From: Nematopogon swammerdamellus
Lineage: Eukaryota; Arthropoda; Insecta; Lepidoptera; Adelidae
Direction: 5' to 3'
Length of the DNA stretch: 64,000 nt
NCBI GenBank assembly: GCA_946902875.1
Contig: OX336340.1
Coordinates: forward strand, 7,523,739-7,587,738
The notes under the pieces were generated by a model. That model searched no databases. It was given only the letters and a program-made list of their open reading frames with translations, and had not been told where the DNA came from. Made by a program: the position numbers and the translations under genes. Positions 928-63,061 of this stretch are shown piece after piece (the first letter of the stretch is position 1; each line of letters starts with the position of its first letter).

Positions 928-3900
928 CTGCACGACCTTAGCCCTCATGGCGAGCGTCTTGTGGCTGTCATTGAGCACATAGATTGGGAAGTTGCGCGGT
1001 CTCACGTCCCCGTGGCTACTCAGTTGACTGTTGGTGGCGTCCATCGGTAGCCACATGTTGAATTCTGCTACCTGCCAGCCGACACATTGTTCATAGTGAC
1101 AAACTACCCCGGAGAGGTTTGTGTGCTAACGTATCCTTCTGAGCACTATAAGCCGTCCATTGTGCTCTCTTTTTTGGATTTATTAATGTTGGAATAAGAC
1201 CAATTTGTTAGTTTTAAAATTAATTTGCCACTTAAAAAGCGCAAAGTCAGCTATTCCATACTAGCGTTCCCCTGACTACACGCTACACGTGTTGTGATGT
1301 TATCTAATATCTTATGATAATTCTAATCAGCCTTACCAAACTGCAAGTCACCCAGGTTTTTTTTTTATAGACAGCGCGGCATGTGGCATCGTTTCACTTA
1401 CGAGTAGGTGACTTACTATCCCTATGGACATTCTGTGATGCACGGGGATTGCGAATGCTATGCCAACCTGACAGGAGCCTTTTCACGCCCCTTTTGAAAA
1501 CCCCCAGGCTTTTCTTGGGAGGAAATAGATGAGCAGGGAGTGCGTTCCACATTTTCCCGGTTCTGTGAATAAAAGACCTACAGAACCGGTTGGTGCGCGG
1601 TAGGTCGATTGTATAGGGGTGCATCCCCTGCCCAGTACGCGTAGTGCGGAGGTGGAATGGGGACGACGGAATCGCGTTAAACAGCTCCTCCGAACACTCC
1701 CCGTGAAATAGACGATAGAACTATGAGGGAGGTCGAGGCCCGAGGTAAGGTATATAATACTGAAAGGGGTATTTTTATACCCCTTTCTAGGCATATTTTT
1801 CTATTCTCCATAGATTTGGGGGACAGGGTTGGCATAATAAACATCCCTATCAGTATTCCATGCGCTACTGCGTACACCTTGTATTTTATACGACTAGTAA
1901 GTAGTACGTAGTAAGTTAAGTTACTACCACACAATACAATTTCAAAATCAAGGCCACAAGTGGCCGTGATCAGGCAATTGTGGCCGCCACCAGTGGCTGA
2001 CCACAGTGGCCAAGTGTACGGGGCCGTAAGCAGAGCGGCGGGTGGGAGAGTGGTTTGGGCATCGGCTTCTCATGCGAAACCCCTTCCCTTGCCCCTTACT
2101 AGGTGGTAGGCTCAAATTGTAGCCGACTGGGTTGGTACCACCGTACTGGATGTAAGATGGCCGCATAGCAGCCTCGGTTGTGTTCTCCTCTAGCCCAGTA
2201 TAGCCAGCAATCCAGGGAAGTCTCCGGTATGGCACCTACCTTCTCGGAGGTGATATTGGCTGGTCGGAGCATGCGCTTTGGTCCCTCCGACTCGGCCACC
2301 CGTACCGGATTACATAAAAAAAAAGCAGAAAGGTAACCCTCATAGTTTTTCAGGTTTGACTACATCGCTCACACTTACCCAGTTCTGCAAAGTGTTGATA
2401 GGCATGATGCAGAGGACCGTCTTGGAAGATGTGTGCCTGAGGAAGATATCGCAGAAGCAGACGATCTGGAGCGTCTTGCCGAGCCCCATCGAGTGCGCGA
2501 GGATGCAGCCGAAACCAGTGGAAGTGGAGAACCGCTCCACCGATTCAATGATGTTGTCGAACAGGAACCGGACACCTCCGATCTGGTGGAGACATGTTTT
2601 GAAGTTATACTTCTGAAAATGCAGAGTAAACTCAGAGAAAAAGTCATGTCATTGTCACCACACGTCACGTCACCGTCGAGCGTCATGTCATTGTCACCGC
2701 ATAAAAATTTTAAATTTTTTTTTTATGGAAACTGACACGATTGGCTAAATCACTTACTACATCCGTGATGTCAGCCCATAACACCTTGGTGAACTAGGTG
2801 CCATGTCAGTGCTTCCCTTCGGTCGTGCCGGCTACACTGAACGGGATGGAAAACATGAACTATTTACATAGCCGTTTCAGCCGTCCTTTCATTCAGTGCA
2901 GTGGTACCAAACCAAAAATTATTTGTATATAGGTAGGTATCGTGCATTATGTGTATGTAGGTCGTACAAATGCTTTATATTAAGTACATATCGATGGTTC
3001 CGGCAACAAAGGTCGTAAAAGCCATTTCGTTTCAGGCAACAAAGGTCGTAAAAGCCATTTCGTCAAAATGTCGTAAAAGCCATTTTGACGAAATGGCTTT
3101 TACGACCTTTGTTGCCTGAAACCAAATGGCTTTTACGACCTTTGTTGCCGGAACCATCGATATTACATATTATGTAGTATCATACAGTATGATGTTGAAT
3201 ACACATACAGTATTACATATTATGTAATATGATACAGAATAATAATTAGAAATTGTATTTGAATTGAAGTATCCCTGACTTGAACTGATTGACCCAGTAG
3301 TGACTACAGCATAGATAGATGAGTGCTTGTACCTGATGCGGCTTGATGATCCTCGCTATCTGCGGCGCGAGGAAGATGTCCTCCTCATTCTCCGGATGGC
3401 CGATGTTGATCGTCACGCGGCCTTGTTCGTCCGGCACGTTGTATGTGTCGTTCACGTGCATACCTATCCACGGAATATTGTCGTTTATACAAAGGTGATA
3501 TGGGCCCACACACCAACAGTTATAACAATGTTAAGTAAAACTCTGATAAGTATATTATGAGAAAAGTTAAAGAGTGTCGTGTTTGTGGTACAAATTCACT
3601 CATTACGTTCCATTTAATTCCTGTCTCGTTTACATACAAACAATGTATGAAAAAATTTATGCCGGTGACTATAAAGGCATGAACCACCAATATGCAACTA
3701 GTTACACGTCAAACATTCAGCAAACGAACCGTAATATGACTCTGAACATACTAACTACCTACATACAATTTTATTCTATTGTAACGTAACATACTTCACG
3801 TTTGTCTGCCAATGGCGTAGGCAGAGAAAACGAATCTTCCTATGGCACGGTCCTGACACACCCCTGATAACTCCTCCACACTCACGTTTTCCATTCATGC

Positions 3901-17519: not shown

Positions 17520-17716
17520 TGATGCCGGCACTTCACTTGGCTTAGCGTATTCGTGTTTGTTGCAAACATTTGATGCCGGCACTTCACTTGGCTTAGCGTA
17601 TTCGTGTTTGTTGCAAACATTTTAGTTTTATCTCGCTCTAAACAAGCCATTAAAGGGAGACGAAACGGAAATGTTTGCCAAATACACGAATACGCTAAGC
17701 CAAGTGAAGTGCCGGC
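17520..17716. repeat. Foldback repeat: two direct 51-base units plus one inverted unit
   Basis: Units at 17520-17570 and 17571-17621 (GATGCCGGCACTTCACTTGG, then GCGTATTCGTGTTTG) are nearly identical. A reverse complement lies at 17670-17716 (TACGCTAAGCCAAGTGAAGT then GCCGGCA). The spacer shares its TTTATCTC/AAAGGGAGA core with 8207-8262. It ends about 95 bases upstream of the NEK start codon, so it may affect that promoter. Confidence 0.85.
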
Positions 17717-17811
17717 AAGACAGCATAGGAAAATAAAAATTTAAAACTACCCACATCTGTTCAGAAATACAATAAAACATTTAAATTTAAAACATCAAAC
17801 TCGCACGCAAT

Positions 17812-20800
17812 ATGGACGATCTTAGTGATTGCAAAATTGTGAAAACTATTGGTAAAGGTACTTATGGGTAAGCCAACCAATACATAATAGCACACAAACA
17901 GCACAAACCTGCGTGAACAGAGGCGGACTAGAAGCCTTGGCCGCCCTAGGCCATTTAGTACCAGCCGCCCCAATTCAGTGCAGCCATCCCTTTCTGCAAA
18001 GTTTACAGCGTAGGTACAAATGTGAAGTTTTATGAAAATAAGTATTGCGTTCGGTTCAACCTGCCAGAAATATTTCATTTCTCAGTTTAGTGGTTTTATT
18101 TTTACATATATATAGCAAAAGTATTTTTTATAAGTTTTACGGCAATATCTTTCTTTTCGTCGTAGCTAAATTATTTTCTCCGCGTAAATGGCCGCGCTCA
18201 CCACGCAAATGCTCGGGCCGACACCTTTTCTATTGTGCCTGCGCTCACTGCTTCCAGCAGCAGGCGTAGATTGGCCGCCCCGCCCTAGGCCCAGGCCTAG
18301 TTGGCACTTGGCCTTAAGGAAAGTCCGCCCCTGTGCGTGAAATCTCCCTGTATTTGAAAAGAAATAGGTGCCACCATTGATGCCTTATGTACCTATTTCA
18401 TTCCAGGACAGTTTACCTATGCAAGAAGAGAACAACTGGCGAATTGACTATAATCAAAGATATACCTGTGAAGTCTACTTTAAAAGATGAATATAAGGTA
18501 AGGGCTTGTACCCATATTTAATTGTTTAAGTAATATGGGAATATCTTGTCCAAAGTTGTTGAAAAGTGTCTTGTTATTTTTAAAAAATGAATAAAACCTT
18601 AAATATTTGTACATGTGAGCATAGTTTTCATTTCCTGCCGATTTACTAGGTACCTTGTACCGTTTACACCACACTAAGCAAATATTGATAAAAGTGGGTA
18701 AAATCTGTCACCTAGTATGGGTACGAGCCCTAATATAGAAAATCCTAATAAAGTATGTATTTTAATTACTATAAAGTATCTGACTGAATGACTGAGAACC
18801 ACAACACATTTTACTGCAGTTTCTCGAAGTGCAGAATCGGAATGCATTTTGTATTAAAATTAAATTTATAATTTGAAAATTATCTGTTCTATTTTCAAAT
18901 TGTAGGGCGCTGAAAATGAAATAAAAATTATATCCAAATTGAACCATCCAAACATTATAAAATACTTTGACAGTTATTATTACAAGACTCATGTGCGGAT
19001 GTCTATGGAGTATGCAACCAATGGGAATCTTGCCGAGTATATGTACGAACGGAGAATGGAATATGTACCTCAACAGGTATGATCAGGTAAAATTTATAAA
19101 TAAGAAAGTAATATTGGTGGGTGATATACAACATATATCTAAACAAGAACCCTGAAATATTTTTATATCTGCATTTAGTGCATTCCTCATACTTGTTTGT
19201 AATATATTATACATTCCCATATTTTTAAATTTACTTAAGCGAGAATTCTCCTTGAAAGCACACAACAGGTACCCAATGATTTAATCTGTTTCAGCAAATC
19301 CTGTTCTTCTTCAGTCAGATTCTGTTGGGAGTTAAGTACATTCACCGGATGAACATTATCCACAGAGACTTGAAGGCGGAAAATATTTTACTGAGCGGGA
19401 AATTTGGAGTGACCATCAAAATTGGTGACTTTGGAATTGCAAAAATGATAATGAGGCATGTACTCGAGTTTTACTTTGAAACTTTCCTATTGCCTCGCGG
19501 CCTCCTGAGTGGGTTTGTACTACTGCACTGGGCACAGCATAAATCTTGGTTACGTTTTAACATGATAGGTTTACTTACATGTGGCATTCATGATAGAAAA
19601 TGGTTTAGGCGGAGAAGTTATAGAATCACGTCATTTTTAACAGACTTCAAAAAAAGGAGGAGCTTCTCCATTTGTCGGAATTTTTTTATGTACCTATGTT
19701 CCGATGATAATTTTTTTATTTGAAAGGGGGTACCTTAGAGGTGGTCCCATATTGGCCAAGTTCTGATGATAGTATTCATGAGAAAAGCATCAAAGCATGT
19801 GCATGACAAATGGGTGAATAATTCTATACCACAACCACACCAACCAATTCCGATGATTCTTTTGATGTTAGAAAGGAGGTACTTCAGGGGTTGGAGTCGG
19901 TTTTTAAAAAGAGTTATTATAAGAACCTAATATTATTATGAACGTGCCTTTATTATTTCTACAGTGGCCAAAAGACATCAACAGTAATTGGAACTCCGTA
20001 CTACTTGGCGCCAGAGCTGTGCGACGGCAAACCTTACGACACAAAGACTGACGTTTGGGCTCTCGGATGTCTTCTGTATGAGATGTGCACGCATCAGAGG
20101 GCGTTTGAGTCCGAGGTAAATATTTCAAACAATCTGTCAAAAATGCACAATAAATTATTACTTACATTCCGTAGGTCAGTGGCGGCTGGTGACTTCAGTG
20201 ACCGGTAGTGCGCTAAGTACCTACCTACCTACCTACTTAAATACCAAATTTCCCAACACATTCCCGTCATGTTATTTTAAGATCGGGACTTCCGAATTTT
20301 TTAAACGCCTGCGTTTTATTATGTACGTACCTAGTATGAATATTCTCAAGACACTCAATGAGTTGCAAAAAACAAGAAAAAAAAACCAAACAAGTTTTTT
20401 AAACTCATTTTTAGTACCTTTATGAACACACCCATAGACCACAACACTACTGCAGCTTTCAAAAAGAAAACAGTAGAAATGTCACAAAAATACTTAAAAA
20501 AAAATATAAAAATAAAAGCATTTGAAAAGTAGGAATTGAACCCGGGATCACCTGATTTTAAAACCTTACCTTAAGAAAACCAACGCTTAAGAAAATATCA
20601 GCACCACTTAATTCACAGTATCACGTGACAGAAAGCACAAAACCTAACCATATCCCATTTTAAATATTCGCGCGCTAACGGGTATGTGACATCACATGAC
20701 AGCGCGCTGACTCTAGCTAGGTAGACGGGACGGGACGAGTTGCAAAACGAATCGCTTGCGACGTGTCGCACGCTATACACGATATAGCGTCCTTGATTGG

Positions 20801-32269: not shown

Positions 32270-33730
32270 CAACTGAATCCGATATTCGTTTTGTCGTATA
32301 TGTAATTTGTTGGCTCAGTGGTTTAAGAGTGTAAGTTTTTTATTTTTTCGATCTCGACCATGGGTTCGTGTCCCTTTTGTCAAAATTTGTTTTGTTTTTT
32401 TTTTAAGCAATATTAGGGTGTTAAAATTAGGTTAGGTTAGGTTAGGTAAATAATAATGATACCTTTTCCACGTAGCTAGTATCGACTGAAAGTGCTTATA
32501 AATTAATGCCTATGTCCTCGTTGCGTGTCGACATACCGAGTCGAGTGTGGTATGGTAGCCCTCCATGTCCAAATTCTTGTACAATGATGTAACCGCAACA
32601 AAAGAAAACAAATGTAAAAATTTCTCATAAAAGTGAATGTAATGTTCTTTTGGGAAATAAATATTCTGAACTGAAAATTAGGTTACGGTTATTTTTTTTT
32701 ATAACCACCTAAGAAAGCTTTATTTTCGGAAAGACAAACGTAACAAAAACGACATGTGCCGCCTCAGCATTAGGTTAGGGTTAATATAAAGAAGTATCTT
32801 CTCTATACTAACCCTGGTTTTTTTAAACCACCAAAAACATCACGAATACATACCACACAACATGACTCATCATACCACACATTCCTCCTTCGAGCCGAAG
32901 TTTGCCGAAAGGAGCTAAAGGAGTAGGTTGCAGGATCGAGCAGGTCTTTCAGGTGGCGGACCGGCTTGCTAGTCTTTGGCCACGGACTAACTAGGCGTTC
33001 GACACCTAAAAGACATTTCGGCTCCTTTTCGGCTCCTTTCGTGAACACTCGGCTCGAAACGAAACGTAACAAAAACGACATGCACCGCCTCAACATTAGG
33101 TTAGGGTTAATATAGAGAAGATGCGTGGCGTAGCGACGCATCTTCTTTATATTAACCCTGGTTATTTTTTTTTAAACCACCAAAACATCACTCATACCTC
33201 ACTTTCCTTCGAGCCGAAGTCTGCCGAAAGACGAGTGGATCAGTATCAATTCTGATTACTCTCAATGACAGTTGTCCTCCTAAGAAATTTTTATATTCGG
33301 AAATATTCGGAAATATACAAACTGTTTTGGTGGTTAAAAAAAAAATAACCAGGGTTAATATAAAGAAGGTTTCGGTTTCGGCTCTATGATGTCACAGCTG
33401 TGAGCGAGAGTAATCAGAATTGATCTGATTTCACTGTGAGCGAGAGTAATCAATTCTGATTACTCTCGCTCACAGCTGTGACGTCATAGAGCCGAAACCG
33501 AATCAAGGGAATTCGATATTCGTTTGTTCGTTTAAGTGAGTTCGTGGCTCAGGGGTGGGGGTTACGGTGTTAAATTGTTTTAGAGTGTTTAGTTTTTTTT
33601 ATAACCACCTAAGAATTATTTTCGGAAATACAAACTTGTAACAAAAACGACATGCACCGCCTCAACATTAAGTTAGCGTACGCGACGCATCTTCTTTATA
33701 TTAACCCTGGTTATTTTTTTTTAAACCACC
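32270..33730. repeat. Cluster of nested inverted repeats (ATAACCACCTAA / AACCAGGGTTAATATAAAGA family)
   Basis: The motif GGTTAATATAAAGAAG or its complement CTTCTTTATATTAACC occurs at least four times in both orientations (about 32778, 33142, 33354, 33690). TTTTAAACCACCAAAACA or its complement lies beside it each time. ACGACATGCACCGCCTCAAC occurs at about 33075 and 33648, with a variant at 32751. ATAACCACCTAAGAA occurs at about 32700 and 33601. The head GATCTCGACCATGGGTTCG at 32350 carries a B box as at 10285. The cluster looks like repeated self-insertion of one inverted-repeat family. No genes seen. Confidence 0.7.
33371..33502. repeat. Long near-perfect palindrome
   Basis: The left arm 33371-33422 starts TTCGGTTTCGGCTCTATGAT; the right arm 33451-33502 ends GTCATAGAGCCGAAACCGAA. 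The 52-base arms differ at one position that I can see. The spacer holds an extra direct copy of TGAGCGAGAGTAATCA. Confidence 0.9.
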
Positions 33731-34738
33731 AAAACAGTTTGTATATTTCCAAATAAAAATTTCTTAGGAGGACAACTGTCAGTGAGAGTAGTCAGAATTG
33801 ATCCCGATCCACTCGTGCCGAAAGGAGCTAAAGCAGCCAGGAAGTCTTTCAGGTGGCGCACCGCTACGTCCAAAGAGAATACCACTAGGCACAGTGGAAC
33901 TCTCACACAGGAACTCTAAAAATGTGGTAAAATATGTATGATTTGAAATAGGTACAGGAGAATTTTTTAGGAGGATGAACATTTTCTTGGAAATTTTTAG
34001 TAGATTTTGGAAGTCAAGAAATTCAAAATTTGAGTTGGCAACACTGCAAACCATATAGGTAGTAAATTTCAGATCAGAGAAAAAAAAATAAGAGAAAAAA
34101 AAAAAGAGTAAATCGAGTAAATTTTGCGGGGGAGGCAGGCTGAGCAGAGAGAGGACGACAGGTTGGGCTGGAGGCAGAGAAACTTTACACGGTTGTGGCC
34201 CCATAGAACCGTTCGTTTAATTTGGTTCACTTCGACCCAGCATTATTGTAATACCATCCTACCTGTTTTGTTAGTTGCAGTTTAACCCTTCGGCCCGAGG
34301 GGTTTACCACTCTGTAATACTGTGTACGATTTCCTTGTAATCCGAATAAATCCGTCGTAATACAGGCAAAATTTCAAAATACAATGTAATATAATGAAAT
34401 CCTTCGAAAACCTATGTAATACTTTGAAATCTTATAAAAATCCTTAATATTGTAGTATTTTCAATGAAATAATCTCTCTGATAATCTGTACTTTTACAAA
34501 TACTACATATTCCACATAATACTACGAAATCCTCTGTAGTCTGTCTGTAGTACAGAAATCCTTTTAATCCTTTGTAATTCTTTGTAATACGCTATAATAC
34601 TAATAAGTTGTTTAAATTCCTCTGTACTTTTTTCTAATTTGCTTGCAGTGTTCATTCGTAGATTACCTCGGTAGTACTGTGAATTATTAGAGTGAAAGTC
34701 AAAGTCAACGAATATTCCTCGGAATATTAACAGTAAAT

Positions 34739-36591
34739 AAAAGATAGGAGACTTCCTTACGACGAAATTAAAATATTATTTTTGTTCCTGGGTACGAAAA
34801 TAATATTCATGGTGTTTTAATTTTGCGATTAAAAAAAAGTGCCTGCCATTTTGAACTTTTTAGTTACTGGACCGATTGCTTTCAAAATCGATATCTGGGT
34901 GACTGTGTGGGCTCTGAATACGAATCCGTTGTCAAAATAAAAAAAAGTGGCCGCCATTTTGAACTTTTTAGTTACTGGACCGATTGCTTTCAAAATCGAT
35001 ATCTGGGCGTCTGTGTGGACTCTGAATACGAATCTGTAGTCAAAATAAAAAAAGTGGCCGCCATTTTGAACTTTTTAGTTACTGGACCGATTGCTTTCAA
35101 AATCGATATCTGGGCGTCTGTGTGGACTCTGAATACGAATCTGTAGTCAAAATTTAAAAAAAGTGGCCGCCATTTTGAACTTTTTAGTTACTGGACCGAT
35201 TGCTTTCAAAATCGATATCTGGGCGTCTGTGTGGACTCTGAATACGAATCCGTAGTCAAAATAAAAAAAAGTGGCCGCCATTTTTAACTTTTTAGTTACT
35301 GGACCGATTGCTTTCGAAATCGATATCTGGGCATCTGTGTGGACTCTGAATACGAATCTGTAGTCAAAATTTAAAAAAAGTGGCCGCCATTTTGAACTTT
35401 TTAGTTACTGGACTGATTGCTTTCAAAATCGATATCTGGGTGTATGTGTGAGCTCTGAATACGAATCCGTTGTCAAAATGTAAAAAAATTGGCCGCCATT
35501 TTGAACTTTTTAGTTACTGGACCGATTGCTTTCAAAATCGATATCTGGGTGTCTATGTAGGCTCTTAATACGAATCCGTTGTCAAAATTTAAAAAAGTGA
35601 CCGCCATTTTGAACTTTTTGGTTACTGGACCGATTGCTTTCAAAATCGATATCTGGGTGTCTGTGTGGATTCTGAATACGAATCTGTTGTCAAAATTTTA
35701 AAAAAGGGACCGCCATTTTGTACTTTTAGTTACTGGACCGATTGTTTTCGAAATAGATATCTGGGTGTCTGTGTGGGCACTGAATACGAATCTGTAGTCA
35801 AATTTTAAAAAAGGGACCGCCATTTTGATCTTTTTAGTTACCGGACCGATTGCTTTCAAAATCGATATCATATTTTTTTAATGTTCACTACATATTGCTA
35901 TTACAGGATATCGTTTTTGAAATTAATCGGTCCAGTAACTAATAAGTTCAAAATGGCGGCCACTTTTTTTAAATTTTGACAACGGATTCGTATTTAGAGC
36001 CCACACAGACACTCAGATATCGATTTTGAAAGCAATCGGTCCAGTAACTAAAAAGTTCAAAATGGCGGTCACTTTTTTTAAAATTTGACTACAGATTCGT
36101 ATTCAGAGCCCACACAGACACCCAGATATCGATTTTGAAAGCAATCGGTCCAGTAACTAAAAATATCAAAATGGCGGTCCCTTTTTTAAAATTTGACTAC
36201 AGATTCGTATTCAGTGCCCACACAGACACCCAGATATCTATTTCGAAAACAATCGGTCCAGTAACTAAAAAGTTCAAAATGGCGGCCACTTTTTTTAAAT
36301 TCTGACAACGGATTCGTATTCAGAGCCCACACAGACACCCAGATATCGATTTTGAAAGCAATCGGTCCAGTAACTAAAAAGTACAAATAGCGGCCACTTT
36401 TTTTAAATTTTGACAACGGATTCGTATTCAGAGCCCAAACAGACACCCAGATATCGATTTTGAAAGCAATTGGTCCAGTAACTAAAAAGTTCGAAATGGC
36501 GGCCACTTTTTTTAAATCGCGAAATTAAAACACCATGAACATTATCAAACCGGAAAAAAAGATTGTCGTAAGGAAGTCTCCAATCTTTTAC
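34739..36591. mobile_element. Inner foldback: 10 direct plus 6 inverted copies of a 108-base unit
   Basis: Units are marked by GCCGCCATTTTGAACTTTTT and CGATTGCTTTCAAAATCGAT. Ten copies, about 108 bases apart, run rightward from 34842 to about 35870. Six inverted copies run from about 35895 to 36520. The outer ends are themselves inverted: GGAGACTTCCTTACGAC and CATGGTGTTTTAATTTTGCG at the left, GCGAAATTAAAACACCATG and GTCGTAAGGAAGTCTCC at the right. The open frames across it are only the repeat read through. Confidence 0.92.
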
Positions 36592-37084
36592 TCTGTTCCT
36601 CGAAGTTTAGGTAAATAAGCCCTACTTATTCCTATCACTGATTATATTAGTACAACTTTACAAAAATATTAAAACAACAGTCTGGTTGAATTTTTCAATA
36701 TTTTTTTTGCATTCAAACAATAATATTCGTTCAGTATAAACTATTTGAAATAATATTACAAATAACAATTTTAAAATTCGCAAATATACCGCACCATCAT
36801 CGTCCGTCAGACATCCATTCCTAGTGATCCCGTCAAGCAAGGCTTCCGATTGGTCGGACGGTCGGCTCTTATTACCCGAGCCAAGCCAGCGATAACAAAC
36901 CTTTCGCTCGCCTTGCTCGCTCTGTCTCTCTCCATAACGCGGGGCGCGTTATGGGTAACGGAGATAGACAAGTCACGTCATAAAAGATTAAATTGCGATT
37001 TCGATTTTCGTAGTAGTAGGGATTTTTGGCTAGCCGTGCTCCGATACAAACGCAGGAGCATTACGTCTCCCGTAGGTATGCTCG

Positions 37085-37460
37085 GTGGCGAGGCCGAAGG
37101 CCGAGTTGCGTTCAGAAAGAAGTTAAACCTTTTTGAAGAAAGTAAGTAACTAAGGCGAGGCCGAAGTCCGAGCCACGTTCAGAAAAATAATAAACCATCT
37201 CGAAGAAAGTAAGTAACTAAGGGCGAGGCCGAAGGCCGAGCTCCTATCAGGTAAACGATATTTCACGAAGAAAGAAAAGACACTAAATGCTGACGCGAAG
37301 GCGGAGCTGCGTATAGCTAAACCATATACTTTCTCGAACAAATGAACTAAGAATGATGCCGAAGGCTGAACAACAACTTTCAGGTAAACAATAAAGCGTC
37401 TCGAAGAAAGTAAGTGACTAAGGGCGAAACCAAAGGCCGAGCTTCGTTCGCGTAAACGAT
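37085..37460. repeat. Tandem array, about 66-base unit, six diverged copies
   Basis: The unit is marked by GCGAGGCCGAAGGCCGAG and CTCGAAGAAAGTAAGTAACT. Copies start near 37087, 37153, 37222, 37290, 37355 and 37421 with clear divergence. It lies between the inner and right outer foldback arms. Confidence 0.8.
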
Positions 37461-37724
37461 ATTATATATTCTAAAGCAAGTCATTATATTACTCGTATTA
37501 ATATATATAGCAGTAAACGCTGCAGCGTTTCTACGTAAAATAAAAAGATGTTCACTGTTCTATGTTGAGTGGTTCAAAATTATAAGCTTGTGTGTGGCAC
37601 ATGGACGGACGGACAACGGAGTGATACCATAAAATTGTATGGTTATATGTTAGTACTAAGCACGTACTTGCTTTATAATATATTTTTAATTAGAAAAATG
37701 CAAATCGAAAATCATTGGAAAAAA

Positions 37725-37800
37725 TACATCCCGACCAGGATTCGAACGGTCTCTGGCTTGAGCTGCCAACGCGATAACCAACTACGCAACCGGGCCGTGA
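37725..37800 (-). other. tRNA-like sequence (degenerate)
   Basis: The minus strand reads GGCCCGGTTGCGTAGTTGG (A-box-like) and GTTCGAATCCTGG (B box), and the flanks pair partly as an acceptor stem (CCCG with CGGG). An anticodon-like stem TTGGC/GCCAG is present, but its loop lacks the usual U33 and the T-stem does not pair. It is probably a tRNA-derived repeat or pseudogene. Confidence 0.45.
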
Positions 37801-38035
37801 CGTATTATCTCCAAATTTTCGATCTTATTGCACCTTCATGCATAATGTCGCATAATTTTTGCGAAGAGTTAACTTGCACGGTTCCATATTGAACCTTATG
37901 CTGTCGTCACCAAAGTCGTATTTGGCATCAGACACTAGAAGTTGACTTGAGGTTTTTAGTAATATTTTATGTTTATATGTTAGTAGTAGTACTAAGCAGT
38001 AAGCACGTACTCGCTTTATATATTTTTTTTAAATT

Positions 38036-38119
38036 AGAAAAATGCAAATCGAAAATCATTGGAAAAAATATCCTGGTCGGGATGTATTTTTTCCAATGAT
38101 TTTCGATTTGCATTTTTCT
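38036..38119. repeat. Palindromic duplication of 37689-37740
   Basis: The left arm AGAAAAATGCAAATCGAAAA (38036 onward) and the right arm ending TTTTCGATTTGCATTTTTCT are 35-base inverted repeats around TCCTGGTCGGGATG. The left arm also matches 37689-37725 directly, and the centre matches the tRNA-like 3' end at 37728-37740. Confidence 0.85.
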
Positions 38120-38659
38120 GATACCATAAAAGTTTAGCTTTCCCTTTTTGGTACGAAACTCAATAATATGTGTTGTCTCGCCTCGTCTGAGGTCAAGTCA
38201 AATACAAAAAAAAAATACATGAAATCTAAAGATATCCTAACTTGCTGAAAATATAGCGTAATATAATGTAATATATCGTATTTTACATTACTAGCAAATA
38301 ATATTGTGTAATACATGAATACTACAATATTACTAGATATCTATTTATTATTTTAGTACACTTGTAATAACATGTAATCCACTATATTCCAGTGTAATCA
38401 TCTGTATTCCACTTTGTAGTACATTTAATACTATGTAGTACAGGAATAATACAATACATTTTAAACAACTATGAATTATTCTTTAATATTTGTAGTACAC
38501 TTGTAATCCATTGTAATCCAAGTTCACCGACAACCTGTGTACAATTTATTTCGGAGTGGCTAACCCCTCGCTTCGGCCATAGCTCGGAGATGGCCATGCC
38601 ATGAGTAAAACCGTTAAATTTTCTAATAATAGCTTACAACGTCTGTAGCTGTACTGTGT

Positions 38660-38785: not shown

Positions 38786-38984
38786 GGCACGGTCCTTCCA
38801 TCGAGTCATGCAGCGGTGGGTATTCATGCCTTACTTACTTGTTGCAGTGCTGCTTGATACTTGCTCGTAGTTAACTTGTCCGAATACTTTGCTAAACGTG
38901 GTGGTCGGTGTTGTGCTGTAATTTACAAGAGTTCTTCTTACCCTGATTGTCGGGACACAGCGTGTGGTATGTATGTATGTATGT

Positions 38985-39368
38985 ACGTCGGTAGCTCTGT
39001 GGTGCGGTGGGTCGACTGTCGGGCGGATCATACGCACACCTGGGCGCGGTCAGTGGATGGGTGGGTGACCACTCCACGGTCGGAGGTTGACCATGGTTCG
39101 GATTCCACGTAAAACTGTAGGGCCCTTCCCTTCTTACCATACTAGGTGGTAGGGTTTAACCCGCCCGGGTTGGTACCACCGCACTGAATTAAATGTCGGT
39201 TGAAACGGCTATTTAAACAGTTCGTGTTTTCCGTCTTCAGTGTAGCCGGCACAACCGAAGGGAATCACTGACATGGCACCTAGTTCACCAAGGTGTTATG
39301 GGCGGACATCACGTATGTAGTAGGTAAGGGAGTTAGCCAACCGTGTCAGTTTCCATAAAAAAAAAACT
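38985..39368 (+). repeat. SINE-like family A, full-length diverged copy
   Basis: Head GGTAGCTCTGTGGTGCGG, 5S-like GCGCGGTCAGTGGATGGGTG then GGTGACC, B box GGTTCGGATTCC, body to a poly-A at 39357-39368. About 50 bases before the head (CTTACCCTGATTGTCGGGAC) also occur before the head of the reverse copy at 40064-40140, so the family may extend further 5'. Confidence 0.8.
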
Positions 39369-44054: not shown

Positions 44055-47000
44055 TCACATTCCGCCGTCCCCTTCGCACTCTTCTGAACCCTCGCCTTCT
44101 TCTAATGTCACCTGCACACAAATACAATCCAATGTTTAAATAGCTACTAGGTAGTGAGATTATCTATACCTACCAATAACCGTGGGCACTGATGTATAAT
44201 TTTAGGTACATAACTTGTGAGATTTCTTTTCTTGATGTCTGCCTAAAGTCTTAAGATTCATGGAACCAATAATGCGAGCATAATCCTTCTCTCCGAAATT
44301 GGGCTTTATTGTTAAAACACTGCTACCAATTGAACTTAGGACCTAGGACTCCCATTATGAATCACAGGAGAAGGTCTATGTATTTGTATCGGGACGGTAG
44401 TAAGTCGTGCGCACAACTGACCTGAAAGCGTATCTGATCGGGTCTGTCGTCATCGGGTGCAGAGGGCTGCGAGCACGCCGGCGCGGGCGGCGGCGACGGC
44501 GGAATCATGCTCTGGTAGTAGTCCCTGTTCTCCTCCAACGTGTCTAGGATGTCCTGCGCGTCCGGATGCACCAGGTCAGCCCACGTCTCCCACAACGGGT
44601 GCACGATGTAGTCGATGAAGCCGACCTGTGACTTCTCGATGGTGGCATTGTGTCGGTCGCACATGGGACTGATGTCCATGCCCTGATCCCGCTCTCGATC
44701 GCCTTGTAGGAAGAACTCCTCCATGAGCAGAGCCACCCACCGCTTGTATAGCGGCAGCGGCTTCGTCGGGTTGCTGAGGTCCGCACAGTGCACAAGATTC
44801 TCCAGCACTTGGATTCTGTCGGTATAGTTGTCTAGAAGCAGTACGCCGCTGCCGGCGACCTTTTTCGTTTCTACCATCGTTTTGAGGTCGGCCAGTAGGC
44901 TCATGTGCTTGGACATGTCCGTCGAGAGGACCATGTCTATGACCATCTTTCTGAGCGTCTGCCGTTGCTTTTTGTGGAGATTGACGAATATGTCGCAGCC
45001 ATCGTTCTGGAGGAGTTTGAAGGCGACCGCGAGGTGGTGGTTCTCCAGCACGGACTCGTCGTTGTACATGAGCGCGAGCTCCGAGCTGGAGTTGACGAGG
45101 AACTGGTTGGTGAGGCCCGGGTGGTCGACGTCGTGCACGCAGGCCGCGAACAGAGCCGCGCACGTCTCGATCGGCGTGAAGACGGACTCGAGGGCGGGCG
45201 TGTTGAGCAGCACGTGCGTCGACTGCGCCACGTCCGCCGCGTGCAGCGAGTTGTGGAAGGGGTTGTCTCGCACGTAGTGCTCCTCCAGCGTGATCGCGAA
45301 CGCGACCAGCGTGCGCGGCGCGATCTGCAGCGTAGAGAGCAGGTCGCGCGACGTGAAGGCGGCGTATGCGACGGCGGTGAGCGGGCGGCCGCACGAGAGG
45401 TCTCCCACGCGGAAGATGTCCAGCCCCCAGCGGTCGAGCTCGCCCATGGCGCGGCCGAGCTCCTCCTCGTGCGGCGTCTCCACGCCGTAGCGTGCTACGC
45501 GCTCGCCCGTAAAGCTGTTGGTGTGCGTCAGTGCTCTCTTCACGCCAGATATCTATGGACCAAACAATTACACGCTCAGTTAACTGATATTCTCCGCATT
45601 TTTAGTAGGTATGCGCATGTGACGTGACAGCACAAAATTCGTTTCGCATTCGATGGAACGGATTGAACCGAGCCGGGACGACAACTTCTGCCCCTGCCCG
45701 CTAATTAGGAGCCGGCGAGCAGTCATTTTTTTCATCGTCAGTGACGTTGGTATTTTTGACGGTAAACAACATTAGGTTGATGATTTGGTGACGAGGTCGC
45801 CGGGTCTTATTTACTATTTGGATACTTTAGTTAGATGTGTGTAGATAATGGACATGAATAGCAGTCACTGCGCTGGGGTCGGTCGGCGCAGCGAGCGAGT
45901 GCCGGCCGGTCGAAGCGCGAAGTCAGAGGCGGCGCAAGGCGTGGGCGACGTGGGCGACCGCCCACGGCCTCGCGGCCCAAGGGGCCTCGCGCCTCGAAAG
46001 TTCATGCAGCGAAAATCCATTTCGACAGTGAAAATTCATAAAATCCATCCTCTAGTGCCACCAGAGGGGCCTCGCAAAATGTATCTTGCCCACATCAAAT
46101 TTAGGTCTTGCCCCGCCACTGCGCGAAGTAGTAGTAGGCGGTAGGGTAGGAGTAGCTAGGTAATGCTAGGTATAGCTCACCTGCGACATAGTAGCCGACG
46201 GTCCTGCATTTCTTGGCTTGTCCTTCTTCTTGTTTCTCTCGACCGGCTCGTCCTGCAGGCAAGGCAGGTCCAGCTCCTGCTGCTTGTCTGCAACGAGCGC
46301 AATACACAGTCAGCGAACCGATTACATTTCCAACTGCCTAGCCATCATTTTATAATATACCTACAATTCAGAAAAACAAAACGTAAAAGTTAAAGCGAAC
46401 GGTTAAATAATAATTACTCCTAATACGTACGAACTCGAAATGGTAAGATATAATCTAAAAGATAAATAAATTCTTTAAATAGTGAAATAATCATTAGGCT
46501 ATTTGCACTTGGTAGTATGTACTCGTGTGGCAACGTCAAATATTCCTATGAAAAAACATCAATATTTAATAGAACGTAACTAAGACGTCTAGTCACTGCG
46601 AGCGACTAATATCGAATGCCGAGATATCAGAGGTTTATTTAAGTACATATGCCAATACGATAAAGATATCCAAAATTACGTATACTTAAGTCGTTCGTTT
46701 CGTTTCACAATCCACTGGGCGTTAACACTGATATAGTCCGCCTGGGTCGACTGTCACTATCTAGCTAGATGCCATAGCCACCTACTGTACTGGATAATAT
46801 TATATGAGTACACTTAGGTACCTAGGTAACTAGTCTGATAGCTTTTATTTATCAAACCTCAAGTGGTTACGGACGAGTCGAACGCAAATAGAGTTTATCG
46901 ATCTGTAATAGATTACGAGAAAATTAAGGTATCACGGACTCTGTAGTGGGCAATGAAAATATAACTTTAGAAGTACCTAAAATATCAATAGTATACCTAA

Positions 47001-50000: not shown

Positions 50001-50868
50001 ATGTATAATTGCCCGCAAGGACAAACATTTCCTCAGTTCCAAATGTATTATAGAAGGCAACATAACAGCTTGGAGATCATCGTCATATAAATAAAACATA
50101 AGAATGTGCATCTTCAACAAAAACAGATGTAAACAATGCTGGAGTCATCGTCCTTTCTTCATTTTCTAAGTCGGCGACGGAAGCAGATATTCAAGTATGT
50201 TCTATCTATTAACTGTCTGAGGGCCTAGTCCGAGTTTACGTGACAGCTACGTAAACGTCAAATACCGATCGAATTAAGTTTTTATGTATGGAGTTCTCTA
50301 GTGGCGCGGCGCGGGCGGTGAGCGTATTGTGCTCCCATACATAAAAACTCAATTCGATCGGTATGTGACGTTTACGTAGCTGTCACGTTAACTCGGACTA
50401 GGCCCCATGATACACAAATAAAGTAGCTAGAGATGCTGCAAATTGTTATCCAACTTAAATATTTCTTCTATGTCTTCACATAGTAACTAGATATTTAATA
50501 GTGAAATAATGGGCCATGAAGCGACTTAAACTTACAAAATAAAAATAGTAGGTACGCACCAAGGCACACCATTAAATAGTTACTTCGTAACCTAGCCATA
50601 AAAGAGAAATACACAAAACCAACCAGATATATTGATCATAAATTTAACCCCGGCACTTGATATTATTTAGACTGACTGATATACTACACTTGATATTAAG
50701 CTAGACAGTATTTAATGTAGTTAGAAAGAGGTTGAACTCACCTAAGAATGTGGAGCAGATGTACTCGGAGATTTGGTTGCCGGACTTGCTGGACTCCGAG
50801 AAGTGACTCAGCTCCTTGTTCAGCATCCGCTTGAACTGCAATTGCAACAATTCCACAGATTGAGCCAT
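44055..50868 (-). CDS. dnc: cAMP-specific 3',5'-cyclic phosphodiesterase, PDE4/dunce, short isoform
   Basis: Exons 50868-50742, 46287-46181, 45552-44422, 44111-44055; 473 aa. It hydrolyses cAMP to 5'-AMP and so limits PKA signalling. Residues 12-60 are the end of regulatory region UCR2 ([37 protein letters not shown]), then linker [14 protein letters not shown]. The catalytic domain carries all signature residues: HNSLHAAD (178-185, proton donor and metal ligand), HDVDHPG (218-224), CADLSNP (334-340), and the substrate glutamine in KSQVGFIDY (about 387). The C-terminus is [18 protein letters not shown]. The start ATGG at 50868 has a strong context; an in-frame ATG at 50940 would add 24 residues. 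The whole catalytic domain is one exon. Longer isoforms with UCR1 would use promoters further right, outside or unseen. Confidence 0.95.
46288..50741. other. PDE4 intron, 4.4 kb
   Basis: AT-rich with few recognisable repeats. Two GC-rich islets, 47760-47890 and 48780-48860, are candidates for alternative first exons or promoters. The former ends on the minus strand in a possible donor TTAG|GTAATT near 47740, but has no ATG. The MITE at 50221-50405 is near the left side of the UCR2 exon. Confidence 0.35.
50221..50405. mobile_element. MITE with about 75-base inverted ends
   Basis: GGGCCTAGTCCGAGTTTACG through ATACCGATCGAATT and TTTTTATGTATGGAG at the left; the reverse complement at the right ends TAACTCGGACTAGGCCCC. 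Only about 35 GC-rich bases lie between the arms. It lies in the PDE4 intron. Confidence 0.9.
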
Positions 50869-55137: not shown

Positions 55138-55530
55138 TTTTATTTTTTTTTTTTATGGAAACTGACACGGTTGGCTACATCACCTACAACGTCCGTGATG
55201 TCAGCCCATAACACCGGGTGAACTAGGTGCCATGTCAGTGCTTCCCCCTTTGATCGTGCCGGCTACACTGAACTGGTCGGAAAACACAAACTATTTACAT
55301 AGCCGTTTTAACCGACGTTTCATTCAGTGCGGTGGTACCAACCCGGGCGGGTTAAACCCTACCACCAAGTAATATTAGGAGGGAAGGGACCTACAGTTTT
55401 ACGAGGAATCCGAACCTCGGTCAGCCTCCAACGGTCAGCGGTCACCCATCCAAGTACTGACCGCACCCAGCGTTGCTTAACATTCAATAGCGACAGTTGA
55501 CTGTCTGCACCACTGAGCTATCGAGGCTGA
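55138..55530 (-). repeat. SINE-like family A, near full-length reverse copy
   Basis: Poly-T then TATGGAAACTGACACGGTTG on the plus strand; the body runs to the reversed head with CACCCATCCAAGTACTGACC (5S-like box C) and CACTGAGCTATCGA (A box) near 55515-55530. Confidence 0.85.
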
Positions 55531-56097
55531 CATACAGAACATACAGAACAATATGCCATTTGTAGTTAGGTCAGTGGTCTTTTAATACTTTTGTTTGCTC
55601 CTATTATTGTGCTACTTTATCATGGATTTAGACGTTAAGCGGTTGATAATGAATACAATCAGGTGTCATTAATGCACTCGCTTACACTCGCACTTACGTA
55701 CTGCACTGCGCAACTACTTTAAGACGGCTAGATCAGATATGAGTGAGATGATACATCAGCGCCATGACAAAACATCTTGAAGCTTGATCGACACCTCAGG
55801 AGGGTAAAGTTCTCGAACATCTCAGCTAATTAGATAACGAACGTGAGTCATCTCATTATTCATGTAGGAGTCATTCCTGGCAGTCTTTATTTATATTATA
55901 TAACGCATGCTAAACGATTAGCTAGAACATAAGTCTGCTTTATGTGAAAGGGAACACTTTCTTTTCAACCGTATTGTAGTCACATTGAAAGTACGCTGGA
56001 CGTTCTGGTTCTGAACTTTCAAAGTGACTTTTAAATACACTACTTAGTAATAATAATGGCAATAAAACTAGAATGATGTACACTCCAAATAACAAAC

Positions 56098-61459: not shown

Positions 61460-61745
61460 TTTCTTTTCGGTCGTACCGGCTACAATGGACTGAATAGACA
61501 ACTCGAACTATTTACATAGCCGTTTCGACCAACTTTTCATTCAGTGCGGTGGTACCAACCCGGCCCGGTTAAACCCTACCTAGTAAGATAAGAAGGAAAG
61601 CGACCTACAGTTTCTACGTGGAATCCGAACCACGGTCAGCCTCCAACGGTCGAGCTGTCACCCATCCAAGTACTGACCGCGCCCAGGTGTGTTTATGATC
61701 ACGATTGACAGTCAACTGACCGCACCACTGAGCTAACGAGGCAGA
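61460..61745 (-). repeat. SINE-like family A, reverse copy lacking the 3' tail
   Basis: From TTTCGGTCGTACCGGCTAC to the reversed head CACCACTGAGCTAACGAGGC. The 5S-like box CACCCATCCAAGTACTGACC is intact at about 61662. Confidence 0.85.
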
Positions 61746-62682: not shown

Positions 62683-63061
62683 GTCCGATAGCTCAGTGGT
62701 GCAGACAGTCTACTGTCGCTATTGGTTGTTAAGCAACGCTGAGCGCGGTCAGTACTTGGATGGGTGACCGCTCGGCCGTTGGAGGCTGACCGTGGTTCGG
62801 ATTCCACGTAAAACTGTAGGTCCCTTCCCTTCTTACCTTACTAGGTGGTAGGGTTCAATCCGCCCGGGTTGGTACCACCGCACTGAATGAAACGTCGGTC
62901 GAAACGGCTATGTAAATAGTTCGTGTTTTCCGTCCAGTTCAGTGTAGCCGACACGACCGAAGGGAAGCACTGACATGGCACCTAGTTCACCCGGTGCTAT
63001 GGGCTGACATAACGGATGTTGTAGGTGATGTAGCCAACCGTGTCAGTTTCCATAAAAAAAA
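62683..63061 (+). repeat. SINE family A, best full-length copy, tRNA-like head with 5S-like core
   Basis: About 379 bases: A box TAGCTCAGTGGT (62689-62700), a 5S rRNA-like segment at 62726-62771 (GTTAAGCAACGCTGAGCGCG then GTCAGTACTTGGATGGGTGA), B box GGTTCGGATTCC (about 62794), conserved body, poly-A end. At least seven other copies lie in the window. No protein is encoded. Confidence 0.88.

Follow-up and report, generated by a model that had tools for sequence, protein, structure and literature searches.

Introduction

Foldback transposons are reported drivers of chromosome inversions, as in the case of Galileo, and of satellite DNA, as in the case of Tetris. In Foldback (FB) of Drosophila, inverted arms made of tandem repeats surround a loop, the arms reach the ends of the element, and the target duplication is 9 bp. 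The target duplication of Galileo is 7 bp. Here we describe an element with inverted tandem arms from the lepidopteran Nematopogon swammerdamellus (Adelidae). It lies in a stretch of 64,000 nucleotides of assembly GCA_946902875.1 (contig OX336340.1, positions 7,523,739 to 7,587,738 of the forward strand); the whole stretch is called the window, and positions are counted from its first letter. The sequence at 34296-38570 is very probably one insertion of a non-autonomous cut-and-paste family, designated Form II, which carries a left-truncated member of a non-autonomous foldback family, designated Form I. Both families are mobile, the anatomy is composite, and the composite is present at many sites. 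It resembles FB in its inverted tandem arms around a loop and differs from it in that the arms of FB are terminal and its duplication is 9 bp.

Among the described systems, Tetris of Drosophila virilis is an apparently non-autonomous foldback element whose inverted arms contain a variable number of ~220-bp tandem repeats. Its arrays lie in terminal inverted repeats (TIRs) of up to 1,735 bp, and its duplications are 8-9 bp in three complete copies and 9-10 bp in four rearranged ones (PMC4079207). Tetris and the present element agree in four respects: the apparent lack of autonomy, the inverted arms of variable tandem repeats, the similar duplication length and the satellite-like repeats. The differences are the 17-21-bp ends, the unlike flanks that precede the arrays, the 108-bp unit and the movement of a two-family composite.

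Galileo, of the P superfamily, has tandem repeats within its terminal repeats, which hold binding sites of the THAP transposase (PMC3573991, PMC3688188). Long internally repetitive inverted arms, many defective copies and exchange among copies are features common to Galileo and the present element (PMC3573991, PMC3688188). The arrays of Galileo are terminal, whereas they are internal here, and the duplications here are 8 bp. Tm1, of the Mutator superfamily, has 13-15-bp repeat units, asymmetric 7-bp end motifs and a usual duplication of 9 bp (PMC3169594, PMC6446971). Tm1 and Phantom are similar in their foldback-like ends of variable length, 8-10-bp duplications, non-autonomous classes and a described nested element (PMC3169594, PMC6446971). 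They differ in unit size and in the ends, and the two loci with a Mutator-like element (MULE) transposase that were fetched here share no ends with Form I or Form II. Duplications of 8 bp are within the reach of animal MULE groups (PMC6446971).

Five strings taken from the ends and the unit matched no paper in the library searched, and the foldback papers listed there, including those on Lepidoptera, describe no equivalent as far as titles and abstract openings tell. The element is presented as a non-autonomous family with a captured foldback element and an unusually clean insertion record.

Results

Form II insertions and their target duplications

The Form II copy in the window is 4275 bp long (34296-38570). 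Its TIRs are 17 bp, CGAGGGGTTTACCACTC at the left and GAGTGGCTAACCCCTCG at the right, and match each other at 15/17 positions. They are directly flanked on both sides by an exact target duplication, CTTCGGCC, at 34288-34295 and 38571-38578. When the CGAGGGGTTTACCACTC motif was searched for with up to 3 mismatches, 34296-34312 and 38554-38570 were the sole matches in the window. In shuffled sequences the chance mean was 0.26, and two or more matches appeared in 2/100 shuffles, so the motif by itself is not decisive. The outer inverted repeat spans 17 bp (15/17) and, weakly, 32 bp (78%).

The first-pass annotation, made from the letters of this stretch, had placed the element at 34275..38600; the TIRs and the flanking duplication move its borders to 34296-38570. 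The inverted boundary motif that it had recognized is present as the pair of TIRs. The outer arms of inverted TGTAATCC-like words that it had described were not found: TGTAAT occurs on the + strand six times in the left end region and seven times in the right, and ATTACA occurs in neither. As these words lie on one strand at both ends, the outer layer is inverted over just 17-32 bp. Accordingly, the proposed likeness to Foldback and Galileo at two levels stands for the inner inverted tandem arrays; it falls for the outer layer, whose repeated words all point the same way.

The 699-Mb assembly (39 contigs) was searched with the window copy as the reference. The left subterminal region (OUT_L) gave 39 match rows corresponding to 35 places, one of them just 37 bp, and the right subterminal region (OUT_R) gave 33 match rows corresponding to 32 places. 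Genome-wide pairing of left and right matches yielded 32 two-ended Form II elements of ~3.6 to 8.6 kb. Compared with the window copy, they show 97-100% identity in the right region and 90-100% in the left. All borders were inspected, and an exact 8-bp target duplication was found in 32/32 copies; the duplications are all different from each other. The 17-bp TIR motif was found at 65 places exactly and at 9 places with one mismatch, against 2 and 0 for the reversed control. The 32 two-ended insertions, each with an exact 8-bp duplication, indicate a transposon and not a collapsed locus. Form II is a mobile DNA transposon family with TIRs and a target duplication of fixed length at independent sites.

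Several further sequences are related to the outer element. A Form II left end with no corresponding right end is present at two places (L095 and L088/L089, on C34 and C30), and the 20 bp of left flank are the same at both; L095 shows 12 forward unit matches, and the right arm is absent from the 3 kb inspected. Positions 101-209 of L032 contain an apparent 109-bp derivative of the outer element with the 8-bp duplication AGTCAAAC. A candidate for the autonomous partner, C3:17229257, was rejected; it resembles such a 109-bp derivative, apparently with the 8-bp duplication AGTCAAAC. A related 568-bp element with a CGAGGGGTTAGCCACTAG end and the 8-bp duplication CTTCACGC is located in L086 (101-668 of the reverse complement). 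The pattern CGAGGGGTTARYCACTNG was found with up to 2 mismatches at 447 places, against 303 for the control; among the matches listed there were exact ones only.

The inner foldback family, Form I

From the unit matches listed, 20 loci besides the window (L009-L028) were sampled. Six were Form II-like, seven were two-ended Form I copies, and seven had one or no recognizable end in the stretch inspected and were left out of the Form I count. The ends of Form I are 21 bp, CACCGAGCATACCTACGGGAG ... CTCCCGTAGGTAT(C/T/G)CTC(CTTG/GGTG), with small variations; ends of Form I or Form II read CACCGAGCATACC or CGAGGGGTT. Exact 8-bp duplications flank 9/9 two-ended Form I copies inspected (the seven above plus L034 and L035, which were picked from the search with the right flank of L024). 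From left to right, the layout is a flank of ~430 bp, the palindrome and a second flank of ~475 bp. Forward units followed by inverted units were observed in all nine two-ended copies, with 5-20 forward and 1-14 inverted units.

A 28-base pattern from the Form I left end was found at 641 places with up to 3 mismatches, and its reversed control at 0. As a count of left ends at this tolerance, 641 is a maximum: right ends of the GCTCGGTG type, which depart from the pattern at few bases, may be included, and some of the places are inside Form II copies. Searches with the Form I flanks gave 687 (from the right flank of L024) and 626 first-look candidates, with 40 of each set scored. Form I is a separate mobile transposon family, much commoner than Form II.

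Form I inside Form II

The interiors of ten Form II copies were inspected; the other 22/32 were inspected at the borders only. The window copy retains an intact Form I right end (37067-37087) and has lost the left one. On the left side the outer element joins the foldback arm near 34738, and ~50 outer bases of the arm and the left flank of Form I are absent. The same left junction is observed in L009, L013, L014, L020 and L025, and Form I copies have other sequence upstream. The right junction of the window, where the Form I right end meets GCGAGGC (I_R to GCGAGGC), is also found in L014. In L022, L025, L029 and L031, the other end of Form I abuts TAAGCACG (I_L to TAAGCACG), a stretch that is uninterrupted in the window. 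Neither right junction was seen in L009, L013, L020 and L030.

In 9/10 copies inspected inside, the arms consist of forward and then inverted units, whose numbers vary. L031 (8.6 kb) has inverted units only, its left arm being replaced by ~5.4 kb of other DNA. The array of L013 is interrupted by a stretch with a frame of 352 amino acids, which by eye looks like the reverse transcriptase of a long interspersed nuclear element (LINE).

Taken as a whole, the explanation that the window element is a composite, a short-TIR DNA transposon with a left-truncated foldback transposon as its body, is highly probable. The first-pass annotation had offered an element nested in another as one possibility, and this holds in essence: the inner foldback is part of a separate family that has ends and target duplications of its own. 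The features of the window copy are as follows.

34288-34295, no strand: left 8-bp target duplication CTTCGGCC, exact copy at 38571-38578
34296-34312, + strand: left Form II TIR CGAGGGGTTTACCACTC
34313-34724, + strand: left subterminal region OUT_L with direct TGTAAT-type words (6 TGTAAT, 0 ATTACA)
34725-34740, no strand: junction of OUT_L and foldback arm, Form I left end missing; common to the window and the five loci named above
34738-34827, + strand: outermost part of the left foldback arm, including GGAGACTTCCTTACGAC; inverted partner reaching 36597, shared with Form I copies
34828-35869, + strand: forward tandem array, 10 units of ~108 bp, the last truncated at CGATATC
35870-35906, no strand: loop between the arms, ~37 bp; similar loop in other copies
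35907-36517, - strand: inverted tandem array, 6 units of ~108 bp, the centre-most truncated at the matching unit position
36515-36605, - strand: outermost part of the right foldback arm (GTCGTAAGGAAGTCTCC)
36606-37066, + strand: right flank of the captured Form I; 89-94% with Form I-type loci, 97% with the Form II sister L014
37067-37087, + strand: Form I right terminal repeat CTCCCGTAGGTATGCTCGGTG; identical end in L014 and L024
37088-37560, + strand: degenerate ~67-bp tandem repeat region (GCGAGGCCGAAGGCCGAG); L025 has similar sequence next to its Form II copy
37561-38199, + strand: right inner region, with uninterrupted TTAGTAC-TAAGCACG-TACTTG at 37650-37670
38200-38553, + strand: right subterminal region OUT_R with direct TGTAAT-type words (7 TGTAAT, 0 ATTACA)
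38554-38570, - strand: right Form II TIR GAGTGGCTAACCCCTCG
38571-38578, no strand: right 8-bp target duplication CTTCGGCC

A tRNA-like stretch was noticed by eye at 37729-37800 in the right inner region, with no ARAGORN call. Rfam and ARAGORN gave no matches on the window.

The tandem arrays and the 108-bp unit

Tandem Repeats Finder (TRF) delimited the two arrays at 34828-35869 and 35907-36517. Ten forward and six inverted unit cores, as counted in the first reading of the locus, are spaced by 107-109 bases, and the unit is 108/109 bases long. One 109-base unit gave at least 210 genome matches. The longest ungapped inverted pair is 504 nt with 90% complementarity. The end repeats CTTACGAC/GTCGTAAG are inverted around the arrays, as had also been noted, and lie inside the inverted repeat 34729-34830 / 36597-36515 (73.5%). 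CTTACGAC was rejected as an element end, as in related copies the palindrome continues and the element ends are located hundreds of bases further out.

The array units of the window differ by several percent among themselves. A1 is closest to B1 (93%) and A9 to B3 (94%), and A10 ties B4/B5 (81%). Both arms stop at one and the same unit position around the loop. The likeness of A1 to B1 and of A9 to B3, together with this common break position, is consistent with an inverted duplication after which unit numbers changed unequally. Identity was compared among 344 inner units of 18 elements. It was 0.948 for units of the same arm, 0.929 for units of opposite arms of one element, 0.936 for different elements of the same form and 0.934 for elements of different forms. 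These values point to mild homogenization inside each arm, to no visible homogenization across the two arms of a copy, and to a unit pool common to Form I and Form II.

The idea that the array codes for protein was rejected, as the 107/109 spacings shift the frame and the array frames are open on both strands. The long array frames are due to the 108-bp period. Scans of IMG/VR with the unit core and the outer TIR gave no match. Elsewhere in the assembly, a check for TTAGG telomere repeats in 500 bp at three contig starts, one of which opens with N, was negative.

Transposase and superfamily

Pfam searches of three open reading frames (ORFs) of the window element, seven of L031 and six of L032 revealed no transposase. 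Three weak matches below the curated cut-offs were obtained, Crust_neurohorm and PIN-like_DDX60 in the window ORF set and MatE in L031. The genome contains 51 MULE transposase matches; the two MULE-bearing loci that were fetched have neither a Form I nor a Form II end. Measured by coordinates, the smallest distance between a listed MULE match and one of the 32 Form II copies is ~49 kb (C27). The 8-bp duplication falls in the 8-10-bp range of Phantom and MULE and is not MULE-specific.

In the Form II duplications, G/C is favoured at positions 1 and 8, exceeding the simulated 95% level (n=32). The 8-bp duplications of hAT elements are of the nTnnnnAn type, although not every hAT need follow that pattern. 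In Form II, T at position 2 is present in 10/32, A at position 7 in 14/32, and both in 4/32, which is no clear match to the hAT type.

The fetched MULE locus L090 has a frame of 1078 amino acids, with three copies of equal score and frame length, and L091 has one of 589 amino acids, with four such copies. These MULE loci were possibly active recently.

Discussion

Structure and possible origin of the composite

Long inverted arms built of tandem repeats, the hallmark of foldback elements, are present at this locus. The repeated arms are not the termini: the arrays are internal, and unlike flanks and 17- or 21-bp ends are located outside them. The Form II composite works like a foldback transposon, and the likeness is structural. 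The interpretation as a mobile element in the first-pass annotation, for which other insertions with target duplications had been named as the check, was right in kind, and 32 such insertions were recovered; the related autonomous copy with a transposase, which it had also suggested looking for, was not found in the copies inspected.

Form I would have entered Form II by transposition, and the captured Form I may then have lost one end by deletion or template switching. A transposase encoded elsewhere would recognize the short ends in trans, and perhaps also the direct TGTAAT words. Array copy number may change through unequal exchange or replication slippage within the palindrome.

Several observations weigh against this composite origin. 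Neither a complete Form I inside Form II nor a full-length Form II free of arrays was seen among the ten copies inspected inside, so the capture step itself is putative. The two right junctions combined with one shared left junction need more than one event. Units from the two arms of one element (0.929) are no more alike than units from different elements (0.936), which gives no hint that the arms are kept similar. A transposase carrying Form I or Form II ends was not found in the copies inspected.

The two right junctions may be read in another way, which we regard as tentative and rather doubtful. The palindromic 108-bp satellite would be a transferable module, captured at least two times by a second set of ends, and the halves of the elements would be reshuffled by recombination in the homologous arrays. 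Foldback transposons would then evolve by swapping ends around a shared core and not by whole-element descent. The incongruence between left and right halves is weak, as much of the OUT_L difference of L009, L013 and L020 is at the inner end of that region.

Alternatively, there could be one family and no capture, with Form II as the older foldback and Form I derived from it by gaining new ends and an extra inverted repeat outside the arrays. The 8-bp duplications of both forms, their common arrays, loop and flank sequence, and the almost equal unit likeness, 0.934 from one form to the other and 0.936 among elements of a single form, are consistent with such a descent. It is nevertheless unlikely. 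The extra inverted repeat of ~41 bp is on both sides in Form I, and Form II retains it on the right side only. Form I ends are also far more numerous, with up to 641 places compared with 35 for OUT_L, and the Form I terminal repeat is on one side only in the inspected Form II copies that keep it.

It is similarly improbable that the element belongs to one of the known foldback groups (FB, Galileo, Phantom/Tm1) as an element with long TIRs made of tandem repeats. In favour of such membership are the inverted arms of tandem units, the variable unit number and the lack of evident coding capacity, which are as in Tetris, Galileo and Tm1, and the target duplications of Phantom (8-10 bp) and Spectre (8 bp) (PMC6446971). 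Against it, the arrays are internal, with unlike flanks between them and the 17- or 21-bp ends. The copies inspected yielded no shared transposase, and the two MULE-bearing loci fetched of the 51 MULE matches are without either end. Finally, although tandem and palindromic arrays are prone to misassembly, an immobile palindromic satellite island or an assembly collapse has a negligible chance, being refuted, as far as the assembly is trustworthy, by 32 insertions with exact and differing 8-bp duplications, and by array units in the window that are several percent apart.

Other features of the window

Positions 1-751 of the window are a near-perfect tandem repeat with a 299-bp unit (2.5 copies, 99%), which overlaps a dispersed repeat that recurs several times elsewhere in the window. 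Four further near-complete palindromes, at 2977-3173, 17574-17717, 33371-33502 and 50221-50405, are 82-93% self-complementary and are perhaps similar to miniature inverted-repeat transposable elements (MITEs). A dispersed repeat has at least four copies in the window, at 38970-39366, 55145-55545, 61466-61739 and 62686-63061; by eye, its start appears tRNA-derived, like that of a short interspersed nuclear element (SINE). Exon-like frames were observed at 44362-45543, with a 3'5'-cyclic nucleotide phosphodiesterase domain (Pfam PF00233, E 1.2e-93), and at 19325-19723, with a partial protein kinase domain.

Implications for foldback transposons

To our knowledge, the origin of foldback arms and their passage between families are poorly resolved. 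A single genome that contains hundreds of foldback-family ends together with 32 two-ended composites with exact borders could make capture, end loss, array growth and spread traceable copy by copy.

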